64,000 bases of DNA from Borrelia sp. RT5S (GTDB taxonomy: Bacteria > Spirochaetota > Spirochaetia > Borreliales > Borreliaceae), in the NCBI RefSeq assembly GCF_021165755.1, contig NZ_CP088936.1:496001-560000 (forward strand), written 5' to 3'. Positions 50,046 through 53,743 of this stretch are shown here, piece after piece (the stretch's first letter is position 1; the number at the start of each line of letters is the position of its first letter). The translations under genes were made by a program, and so were the position numbers. The notes under the pieces were generated by a model, which saw only the letters and a program-made list of their open reading frames with translations, ran no database searches and was not told the origin of the DNA.

Positions 50046-50091
50046 TTAAAAGCGGTGTATACAAGTTTTCTGAGTGTCTTTGGAGGATTTT

Positions 50092-50574
50092 ATGAGTATT
50101 TATGATTTTAGGGTAAGACTTGCATCTGGACCTGAGATTTCTATTTCAGATTATATGCGCAAGGTGTTACTAATTGTAAACGTAGCAAGTAATTGTAGTT
50201 ATACAAGTCAATATCAAGATCTTGAAATGCTTTACAGAATATATAGAAGGAGGGGCCTTTTTATATTAGGATTTCCTTGTAATCAGTTTGGTTTACAGGA
50301 ACCTGGTGCAAACGAGGAGATTTTAAGGTTTTGTCAGACAATTTATAATGTTTCATTTCCTATTTTTTCTAAAATTGAGGTTAATGGTGAGAATGCCCAC
50401 CCTTTGTATAAGTATTTAACAGAAAAGTCTCCTCAAGAGTTTAAGGGAGATATTCGTTGGAATTTTACTAAGTTTTTAGTAAACAGAGAAGGAGAGATAG
50501 TAGATAGATATGATTCTAGAGTTACTCCAATGAGTATTAAGGGTAGGATTGAAAGACTATTGAATGTGAGGTAG
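50092..50574 (+). CDS. Glutathione peroxidase family (thiol peroxidase)
   Basis: 160 residues from ATG 50092, with GGAGG five bases before. All catalytic positions are visible: Cys35 in NVASNCSYT, Gln65 in FPCNQFG, Trp123 and Asn124 in IRWNFTKF; Cys81 is a candidate resolving cysteine. It uses Cys rather than selenocysteine. Since Borrelia does not make glutathione, thioredoxin (trxB, 44301) is a likely reductant. It stands alone on its own promoter. From memory, B. burgdorferi B31 has no annotated Gpx. Confidence 0.92.
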   Translation: MSIYDFRVRLASGPEISISDYMRKVLLIVNVASNCSYTSQYQDLEMLYRIYRRRGLFILGFPCNQFGLQEPGANEEILRFCQTIYNVSFPIFSKIEVNGENAHPLYKYLTEKSPQEFKGDIRWNFTKFLVNREGEIVDRYDSRVTPMSIKGRIERLLNVR

Positions 50575-50619: not shown

Positions 50620-52170
50620 GTGAGAGTATGCATAGCTCAGATAAAGCATAGGGTTTCTAGGTTTGAGGAAACGTTGAGTGAATTTAAAAAAAATTGTGAA
50701 TGTGCTTTGCAGAATAATGTTGACGTTCTAGTTTTCCCTTTTATGTATATTGGCCATTTTGAATATGAAAGTTTGCTAAATAGGCCAGAGTTTTTGAAAT
50801 CTAACCTTGATTATCTTAATTTTGTAAAAAATCAAGTTGACAATAGACTATGTGTCGTATTTGGACATTATGATATTTGTGGAGGGAAGGTAGTGGACTG
50901 TTTATCTGTGGTAAGCGGCCGCGAGCTTGTTTTAACAACTAAAGAAGTTAATGTTCCAATTTTGTTTAGATATAAGGGAAAGAGCCTTGCCATCTTGAAT
51001 TTTGAAGATGATTTTTTATCCAAAGAGTTTAAAGCTGAGAGTATGGCTTGTTTAAGGGAATCCCAATATCTCTTAATTCCATCAAAGTCTTATTTTACTA
51101 GGGGGAAAAATAATTTAAGACTTTCTTTTTTTAAAAGAATAGCTATTGAAAATAATATGGAAGTTGCTTATGCCAATTCATATGGTGTTCATGATCCAAT
51201 TGTATTTGATGGTCTGAGTTTTTTTATTAACAAGCACGGCGAATTAGTTCAAGCTAAAGAGCTTGAAGAAGATATTTTACTAAATGAAGGATTTGCTTCG
51301 TTAGAGCTTGACTCTCCTTTTGTAATTCTTGATAGAGTGATCTCAGCGTTAGTAACTGCTTTAAGGGAATATGTTTGTCTTGCTGGATTTAATAAAGTTC
51401 ATTTGGGTATTTCGGGAGGTATTGATTCTGCTATTGTTGCTTATCTTGCGTGTGTTGCTTTGGGTGGGGATAGAGTTACTGGTATTTCTATGCCCAGTAG
51501 GTTTTCGTCGCGTGGGTCTGTTGCTGACGCTAAGGAGCTGGCTAGAGGATTGGGATTTAAGTTGATTGACATGCCTATTGAGGCTGTGTTTTCAACCACT
51601 TTAGAATTTTTTGGTGATTATTTTAGTACAAAGGGAATTACTGAAGAGAATTTGCAGGCAAGGCTTAGAGGTCTTTTCTTAATGTCTTATAGCAACTCGA
51701 ATCGTTCTTTGCTTTTAAATACTGGTAATAAAAGCGAAATTGCTGTTGGTTATTACACACTTTATGGTGACTCTTGTGGGGGGATTGCTTTGATTGGGGA
51801 TTTGTTTAAAGGTGATGTGTATGAGCTTGCAAGACATATTAATGTAAAAGAAGGTAGAGATGTTATTCCTACTAGTATTATTTTAAAAGAACCTTCTGCT
51901 GAGTTAAGGCTTGAGCAAAAAGATAGCGATTCTCTTCCTACATATGAAGTTCTTGACGAGATTTTGAATAGATATTTGATTAAAAATGAACCTTTGGATC
52001 TTTTGTATAAATCTTTTGGAAAAGAATTGGTCGTAAAAGTGTTAGATCTTTACTCCGGTAGTGAACATAAAAGGAGACAAGGCGCTATGATAGTTAAAGT
52101 TTCTAATAAGACTTTTGGTAACGATATTTTGCTGCCTATATCAAAGGTTAAATTAGCGATAGATGAATAA
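50620..52170 (+). CDS. nadE: NAD+ synthetase with degenerate nitrilase domain
   Basis: 516 residues from GTG 50620. The C-terminal synthetase is complete, with P-loop HLGISGGIDSAIVAYLA, LQARLRGLFLMSYSN and NTGNKSEIAVGYYTLYGD. The N-terminal nitrilase (glutaminase) domain aligns end to end with glutamine-dependent NadE but has lost key residues: FPEL became FPFM (Phe41 for catalytic Glu) and ICED became NFED (Phe128 for catalytic Cys); the Lys (Lys108) remains. The protein probably uses free ammonia. It overlaps the next gene by 8 nt. Confidence 0.93.
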   Translation: MRVCIAQIKHRVSRFEETLSEFKKNCECALQNNVDVLVFPFMYIGHFEYESLLNRPEFLKSNLDYLNFVKNQVDNRLCVVFGHYDICGGKVVDCLSVVSGRELVLTTKEVNVPILFRYKGKSLAILNFEDDFLSKEFKAESMACLRESQYLLIPSKSYFTRGKNNLRLSFFKRIAIENNMEVAYANSYGVHDPIVFDGLSFFINKHGELVQAKELEEDILLNEGFASLELDSPFVILDRVISALVTALREYVCLAGFNKVHLGISGGIDSAIVAYLACVALGGDRVTGISMPSRFSSRGSVADAKELARGLGFKLIDMPIEAVFSTTLEFFGDYFSTKGITEENLQARLRGLFLMSYSNSNRSLLLNTGNKSEIAVGYYTLYGDSCGGIALIGDLFKGDVYELARHINVKEGRDVIPTSIILKEPSAELRLEQKDSDSLPTYEVLDEILNRYLIKNEPLDLLYKSFGKELVVKVLDLYSGSEHKRRQGAMIVKVSNKTFGNDILLPISKVKLAIDE

Positions 52171-53743
52171 TGCTAATATTGTTAGTGTATTAAATGAATT
52201 TAACTTAAAGTTAGAAAAGATTTTTTTGCTGATAAATACTTATTCTTACGAGCTTTATAAAGAAACCCCTAGATATTTTTATGGTGATATTACTAATTAT
52301 CTTGAGTTAACTCTAGAAGTATCGAATAAATTTAAAGAAGAGCTTGAAGCTTCTGAAGAATTAAGAGTAGGTAAGTTTCTTATTAAAAGCGTTAAGTGTG
52401 ATTTAGTTTCTTATTTGTATCTATCTTTAGAGTTAATAGATAATTCTATGAGTTATGATGAGGTTAAAGATGCTGGTTTTGCTTTTCTGAAGGCTATTTC
52501 TTTCAAGATTTCATCAATAGTATCCTATACGGAGATTGAACTTGAAAGGTTAACTCTCTCTTCTGAGCATACAAGTAAGCAAGTTGTAAATAAAGATAGG
52601 CATAAAATATTAATTTTTTCTGGGGATGAAAGTCACAGTAAGGAACTTACGAGGTATTTCATGTTGAAATACGATGTTATATCCGTAGATACTATTGATT
52701 TTTTCAATAAGATGCTTTGTAGTGATTTTTATGATTTAATTATTCTTGATTTTTTTTCAGACAGAGATGTAGCTATAATTTTGAATTTACTTAAAGGAAT
52801 TAAAAAAAATAGTCTTTATGAAAAAATTCCCGTCATTATTGTTTCTAATATAACTAGAAAGGATATTGTTACAATCTTTGTCCAAGAGGGAGTGGATGAT
52901 TATTTTTTAAAAAGTTTAGATTTATTAGTGTTAGAGGCTAGGATAAGTGGGTTTATTGAGAAGAAAAAGAGCATAGAGCAGGGACAGAAGTATTTAGATC
53001 TCATACTTAAGAGCAGAGAATATCTTGAGAGTGGATTGCTTGAGGCTGGGAACTATGTTGAAAGCTTATTGCCTGATAAATTACAAAACGAGTTTTTTAG
53101 TACCGATTGGATTTTTATACCTTCAGAGAGAATTGGAGGTGATTTCTTTAATTACTATTTTGTTAGTGATGATGAATTAGTAATCTATTTAATAGATATT
53201 TCAGGCCATGGGGTAGGTTCTACTCTTTTATCTTTAAGTGTTTCAAGTGTTATTAACTCTTATGTTATGAATAATAATGATATTAATCCCTCCAAGGTTC
53301 TAGGATACATTAATAGTTATTTCGTTAAGTTTAGAAGTGATATGTTTATTACATTATGGTATGGGGTGTTAAATGTGAAGACAAGACAGCTGAGGTTTGC
53401 AACAGCAGGAGCACCTCCTGCTGTTGCTATAACCCATGGGGATAATTTTTGTCTCCATGCAAGAGGGATGATTCTTGGAATTGAAGAGATATATTCTTGT
53501 CAGGAGAGTGAGGTTTTATTGGATAAAGATTCTCACCTCTTGCTTTTCAGTGATGGTGTTTATGAAATTGAAAATAAGAAAAATCTAATAATGTCCATTG
53601 ATGATTTTTATGGAGTAATTAAAGAAAATACACAACATTTGGATGACTTTATCTTAATGCGTATTTATAAGAGTATGTTGGGGTTATCTAAACATAACAA
53701 ATTTAGAGATGATTTTTCCGTTCTAGAGTTCATTATCAAATAG
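52163..53743 (+). CDS. Response regulator with SpoIIE/RsbU-type PP2C phosphatase
   Basis: 526 residues in three parts. The first ~140 form a helical domain of unknown type. The receiver domain (about 147-265) keeps phospho-acceptor Asp196 (LIILDFF), Ser228 and Lys250. The phosphatase domain (about 310-526) keeps its metal ligands: SERIGGDFFNYY (Asp327), LIDISGHGVG (Asp345), LLFSDGVYE and RDDFSVLEF. Such proteins dephosphorylate anti-sigma-factor antagonists. No cognate STAS or anti-sigma gene is in the window. It overlaps nadE by 8 nt. Confidence 0.88.
   Translation: MNNANIVSVLNEFNLKLEKIFLLINTYSYELYKETPRYFYGDITNYLELTLEVSNKFKEELEASEELRVGKFLIKSVKCDLVSYLYLSLELIDNSMSYDEVKDAGFAFLKAISFKISSIVSYTEIELERLTLSSEHTSKQVVNKDRHKILIFSGDESHSKELTRYFMLKYDVISVDTIDFFNKMLCSDFYDLIILDFFSDRDVAIILNLLKGIKKNSLYEKIPVIIVSNITRKDIVTIFVQEGVDDYFLKSLDLLVLEARISGFIEKKKSIEQGQKYLDLILKSREYLESGLLEAGNYVESLLPDKLQNEFFSTDWIFIPSERIGGDFFNYYFVSDDELVIYLIDISGHGVGSTLLSLSVSSVINSYVMNNNDINPSKVLGYINSYFVKFRSDMFITLWYGVLNVKTRQLRFATAGAPPAVAITHGDNFCLHARGMILGIEEIYSCQESEVLLDKDSHLLLFSDGVYEIENKKNLIMSIDDFYGVIKENTQHLDDFILMRIYKSMLGLSKHNKFRDDFSVLEFIIK

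Follow-up and report, generated by a model that had tools for sequence, protein, structure and literature searches.

Borrelia are tick-borne bacteria, and NadE is the enzyme that completes their NAD. The gene coding for it in Borrelia sp. RT5S lies in the 64,000-nucleotide stretch analysed here as the window (NZ_CP088936.1, positions 496,001 to 560,000), and it raises the question of which nitrogen donor the enzyme uses, given a glutaminase domain with substituted catalytic residues next to an intact synthetase domain. The following features were identified, with residue numbers of the Mycobacterium tuberculosis enzyme taken from a motif alignment and from the description in PMC6946656:

50620..52170, + strand: nadE, fused NAD(+) synthetase of 516 aa with a GTG start (open reading frame, Pfam and NCBIfam profiles, homologue alignment)
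50620..51315, + strand: pseudo-glutaminase (nitrilase-fold) domain, residues 1-232 (sub-threshold CN_hydrolase match, AlphaFold model, structure matches)
50740..50742, + strand: Phe41 (codon TTT) at the catalytic Glu site (Glu52 of M. tuberculosis); Phe in 17 and Ser in 10 Borreliaceae, Glu in 40/40 intact outgroups
50944..50946, + strand: Glu109 at the catalytic Lys site (Lys121 of M. tuberculosis); Glu in 15, Gln in 9, Lys in 2 and Ser in 1 Borreliaceae, Lys in 40/40 outgroups
50959..50964, + strand: 17 residues missing between positions 114 and 115, matching the YRE-loop stretch (YDVFDExRYF) and its second active-site Glu
51001..51003, + strand: Phe128 (codon TTT) at the nucleophilic Cys site (Cys176 of M. 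tuberculosis); Phe in 17 and Leu in 10 Borreliaceae, Cys in 40/40 outgroups
51031..51036, + strand: about 10 residues lost at the junction of 138 and 139, after the Cys motif; block missing in 27/27 Borreliaceae rows
51085..51093, + strand: Lys156-Ser157-Tyr158 where the SASP motif has Ala-Ser-Pro (alignment)
51340..52080, + strand: intact NAD synthetase (ATP-pyrophosphatase) domain, residues 241-487 (Pfam PF02540 NAD_synthase, E 1.6e-65)
52069..52143, + strand: C-terminal segment KRRQ...FG...LPI, residues 484-508, the extended C-terminal loop (aligned with 5kha, 4f4h and 3n05)

The nadE gene is the only PF02540 match found by profile search in the 1.18-Mb genome, and its product is 79% identical to its relative in Borrelia sp. 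BU AG58. The architecture is that of type F fused NadEs, with an N-terminal nitrilase-fold domain, a NAD synthetase domain and the extended C-terminal loop, a signature element of two-domain NadEs that contacts the glutaminase domain (PMC3376133). The protein scores above the cut-off of TIGR00552. With NF010588 (NCBIfam; PRK13981, NAD+ synthase equivalog) it aligns over residues 1-509 and reaches 398.1 bits, below the curated cut-off of 479, and its N-terminal domain obtains 15.7 bits with Pfam CN_hydrolase, under the cut-off of 23.2. The residues of the SGGxDS motif (ATP-pyrophosphatase P-loop) and of TGNKxE...YGD are invariant in all 72 aligned sequences.

Two neighboring genes vary among the related loci. 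Directly 5' of nadE lies a glutathione-peroxidase-like gene (50074-50574, +) that is apparently in decay at its original site: roughly half of the Borrelia loci (L002, L004-L006, L008, L010, L016) have it at nearly full length, in L007, L009, L011, L012, L017 and L019 it is fragmentary or matches poorly, and there is no match in L013-L015, L018, L020 and the Borreliella loci. On the 3' side, a response-regulator/SpoIIE-phosphatase-like gene (52163-53743, +) starts within nadE, with an overlap of 8 bases that suggests translational coupling. This gene is kept in Borrelia, and just short fragments of it are present in one Borreliella locus (L030).

The 72-sequence alignment comprises 27 sequences from Borreliaceae, 41 fused NadEs from other spirochaetes and four sequences of family f44, and outgroup columns were counted over 40 intact spirochaete homologues. 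Glu, Lys and Cys are retained in 40 of the 41 other spirochaete NadEs, whereas the site is lost in all 27 Borreliaceae; this identical loss rules out chance or sequencing error. The 17-residue block (consensus YDVFDEARYFSPARERE) is missing in every Borreliaceae row and there in most outgroups. In the active enzyme, the YRE loop and its second Glu contact glutamine, position the catalytic Lys, gate the ammonia tunnel and communicate with the synthetase site (PMC6946656). Borreliaceae also lack the Tyr and Pro at the tunnel mouth (M. tuberculosis Tyr58 and Pro204), which form constriction 1 (PMC6946656) and are present in 40/40 outgroups. In the former SASP motif, Lys156 is clade-specific and invariant (27/27 Borreliaceae, versus Ala in 38 and Ser in 2 outgroups), and position 158 is Tyr in 24 and Cys in 3 Borreliaceae versus Pro in all 40 outgroups. 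The window NadE thus has neither the Glu-Lys-Cys triad (F41, E109, F128) nor the YRE loop that EC 6.3.5.1 implies.

The original prediction had Phe41 replacing the Glu and Phe128 replacing the Cys beside an intact synthetase domain, all of which is borne out by the two TTT codons, the uniform outgroup columns, the PF02540 match and the invariant core, and the survey of Borrelia NadEs that it called for extends the loss to all 27 Borreliaceae sequences aligned. Its count of two lost residues was correct as far as it went but understated, with the Lys site and the YRE loop gone too, and the domain falls somewhat short of the full length it had stated, because the 17-residue and ~10-residue blocks are deleted in all Borreliaceae rows. 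Judged from the alignment, at least six separate glutaminase features are lost, not two, and the glutaminase domain of Borreliaceae NadE is almost certainly dead. The loss predates the split of Borrelia and Borreliella.

The dead domain is nevertheless not decaying. An AlphaFold2 model built with the 72-sequence alignment as input gives a confident two-domain fold (mean pLDDT 91.4, pTM 0.92), whose top whole-length matches in the PDB are glutamine-dependent NAD synthetases. At matched synthetase identity, the N-terminal domain is conserved about as in intact enzymes: its median identity in Borreliaceae versus intact enzymes is 0.47 versus 0.405 at synthetase identities of 0.55-0.65, 0.625 versus 0.581 at 0.72-0.80 and 0.75 versus 0.645 at 0.80-0.90, with the slightly opposite direction at 0.65-0.72 (0.472 versus 0.519). 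The dead domain is therefore not clearly faster-evolving than live ones. Its median dN/dS is about 0.30, above the 0.16-0.21 of the synthetase domain; given this difference and the opposite bin, the constraint is real, though not stronger everywhere. The fold of the dead domain is under purifying selection.

These data bear on four other explanations. The substitutions and deletions in the active site, together with the slightly relaxed dN/dS, could mark a functionless relic on its way to being lost, and in one Borreliella genome (G021, L065, about 900-1080) a frame break separates the dead domain from the remainder of nadE, by sequencing error or a real split. This reading is improbable, as the frame is open in every other Borreliaceae genome searched, both deep genera kept the domain, clade-specific residues are conserved, and conservation about equals that of active enzymes at matched synthetase identity. 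The same retained and selected fold, with the clade-specific Lys156 and Tyr158 in the region of the old site, might instead point to a domain that still hydrolyses glutamine through a shifted or new nucleophile. We give this very little credence: no Cys of the domain is conserved across Borreliaceae, which argues against an alternative Cys nucleophile, the position that replaces Lys drifts among Glu, Gln, Lys and Ser, and Glu, Lys, Cys, the second Glu, the YRE loop and the tunnel-mouth Tyr and Pro are all lost or variable. A change of substrate of the synthetase, for example to NMN synthetase (nicotinate mononucleotide amidase) as in Francisella, is suggested by the structural match of the synthetase domain to the ammonia-using Francisella enzyme (3fiu). 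It appears highly improbable, since the window nadE is the only NadE homologue of its genome, the top whole-length matches are glutamine-dependent NadEs, and the synthetase domain falls within the spirochaete fused NadEs in a tree.

A separate glutaminase could also act in trans with NadE, as in the two-subunit enzyme of Thermus thermophilus, and such glutamine-using two-subunit NAD synthetases are known (PMC3376133). In each of the 36 Borreliaceae genomes, one protein besides NadE (about 525 aa) lies above the CN_hydrolase cut-off; the four of these proteins that were read are alike with intact catalytic motifs, and the one scored is the apolipoprotein N-acyltransferase Lnt, a membrane protein. 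No substitute glutaminase of the nitrilase superfamily was thus detected in the 36 genomes, and the kept pseudo-domain would fill the docking face of a partner, so that we regard a glutaminase in trans as scarcely credible. General abandonment of glutamine use is ruled out by the GATase Cys retained in PyrG (CTP synthase) of the window genome (GICLGMQ) and in GuaA of Borreliella (GICYGMQ); other amidotransferases retain their glutaminase, and the loss is therefore particular to NadE. Glutamine synthetase was found in 0/36 Borreliaceae genomes. NF006629, presumably a NadV-like profile, gave no match above cut-off in the 36 genomes for a bypass through nicotinamide phosphoribosyltransferase.

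An ammonia-dependent NadE whose dead glutaminase domain is kept as a scaffold throughout Borreliaceae is the reading that we hold with good confidence. The gene codes for what was once a glutamine-dependent NAD synthetase, and its glutaminase domain, catalytically dead as the sequence shows, was probably retained because it is part of a folded, probably oligomeric enzyme, as the constraint and the kept interface suggest. Since the glutaminase is dead and the synthetase intact, the synthetase domain would amidate deamido-NAD using free ammonia. NAD synthesis in Borreliaceae thus very probably runs on free ammonia, which we infer to be its sole nitrogen donor. Both the structural scaffold and the need for free ammonia had been proposed in the original prediction; the former fits the constraint and the confident predicted fold, and the latter, itself a prediction, fits the lost triad and intact synthetase. 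Channelling of ammonia from the old site, which it had also envisaged, is less likely because the YRE-loop residues and the tunnel-mouth Tyr and Pro are deleted or replaced, although what became of the former pocket and tunnel is judged from the alignment.

The supply of free ammonia needs explaining, because the Km for NH3 is given as 42 (presumably mM, the usual unit of such tables) in a table for the human enzyme. The loss is in keeping with a host-dependent lineage that is unable to make glutamine yet generates ammonia of little other use. PncA (nicotinamidase), which converts nicotinamide to nicotinate and NH3, was identified in 25 of 36 Borreliaceae genomes, including that of the window (G000:C3:24849-25394). 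As it frees one NH3 per nicotinamide and NadE uses one per NAD, the two can balance by pathway stoichiometry, and this NH3 could return one-for-one via NadE; no paper stating such a balance in Borrelia was found in the open-access literature. Several of the 11 PncA-negative genomes are single-contig or few-contig assemblies, which may lack the plasmid. Arginine deiminase is present in 35/36 genomes and would add further ammonia; amino-acid breakdown is thus a possible source, and nicotinamidase would be an equally good one. One single-contig Borrelia genome (G013, L005) has a match to neither arginine deiminase nor PncA, which may stem from an incomplete assembly or from a genuinely different ammonia supply.

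A similar loss is present outside the family. In f44, a spirochaete family with small genomes (L047-L050; four genomes of 1.5-2 Mb), the glutaminase domain of the fused NadE (~490 aa) is even more reduced than in Borreliaceae: Phe stands at the Glu site, the Lys has not been conserved and nothing is left of the Cys motif. AlphaFold gives a two-domain model for it as well (pLDDT 85.3), with a weak stretch at residues 97-117. In f44, arginine deiminase gave no match and the loci read contained no KDWH-type PncA; the ammonia sources proposed above are therefore not general, and PncA coupling is unsupported as a general rule. The isochorismatase-like proteins of f44 are of a type that differs from Borrelia PncA. 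At the triad positions, a single metagenome sequence (L081) shows Lys, Ala and Gly, and it groups within the intact enzymes in the synthetase-domain tree, which was built from fused spirochaete enzymes only. A starred branch (97/94) of the tree separates Borreliaceae from f44, which speaks against a single origin of their losses; grouping the two in one clade is, however, not rejected by the AU test (p 0.066). Their independence is thus likely rather than shown. At least two origins of the loss, L081 (by its one sequence) and the rest, are supported, and three are likely.

Among known systems, the best match by sequence and structure is the glutamine-dependent NadE (type F, PMC3376133; 5kha, 4f4h, 3n05, M. 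tuberculosis 3dla/3sdb, human 6ofb), with which Borreliaceae NadE shares domain order, nitrilase fold, intact synthetase domain and extended C-terminal loop; it differs in lacking the triad, the YRE loop with the second Glu and the tunnel-mouth Tyr and Pro, and is about 27 residues shorter in two blocks. The single-domain type N enzymes (Salmonella, Helicobacter pylori 1xng, Methanocaldococcus jannaschii) resemble it in its predicted use of free ammonia only. In contrast to type N, it keeps the N-terminal domain, though dead, and the C-terminal loop, and its synthetase domain sits in the tree of fused spirochaete NadEs. The M. tuberculosis C176A mutant (3sdb/3seq/3sez/3szg) reproduces one of the natural changes in the laboratory and, going by the structure titles, folds and binds synthetase ligands, but it alters the Cys alone, and the YRE loop, Glu and Lys stay. 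Animal CPS1 is an ammonia-using relative of amidotransferases that kept an inactive glutaminase-like domain after loss of the catalytic Cys. It would offer a functional parallel to a dead glutaminase-like domain with ammonia use, but its fold is a class I GATase and not a nitrilase, its reaction is another, and the two are not homologous.

A more far-reaching idea, which we consider doubtful, is that the dead domain was re-used. The clade-specific residues (Lys156, Phe/Leu128, Tyr158) and the absence of the YRE loop might have made it a port where ammonia enters, a regulatory pocket or a surface on which an ammonia producer such as PncA docks, with the amide nitrogen of scavenged nicotinamide returned to NAD in a closed loop, and such a dead-glutaminase NadE might have been reached more than once in reduced spirochaetes. 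If true, the closed nitrogen loop would spare host glutamine.

In the open-access literature, no previous description of a NadE with a dead glutaminase domain was found. BB0522 is presumably the Borreliella orthologue of the window nadE, according to the B. burgdorferi annotation. A 2017 acid-stress paper proposed that BB0522 may turn glutamate into glutamine with NH3 (PMC5626856), which is disfavoured because the active site is lost. Fused NadEs were treated as glutamine-utilising in 2012, in a main text without Borrelia or spirochaetes (PMC3376133), and annotation and modelling take two-domain NadEs to depend on glutamine, which for Borreliaceae is very probably wrong. These enzymes would represent a natural pseudo-amidotransferase that arose more than once within a phylum and lets the scaffold be separated from catalysis. 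The NAD supply of Borreliaceae would hinge on free ammonia, in a family where nicotinamidase is essential in the host for one of its organisms (PMC13398362).
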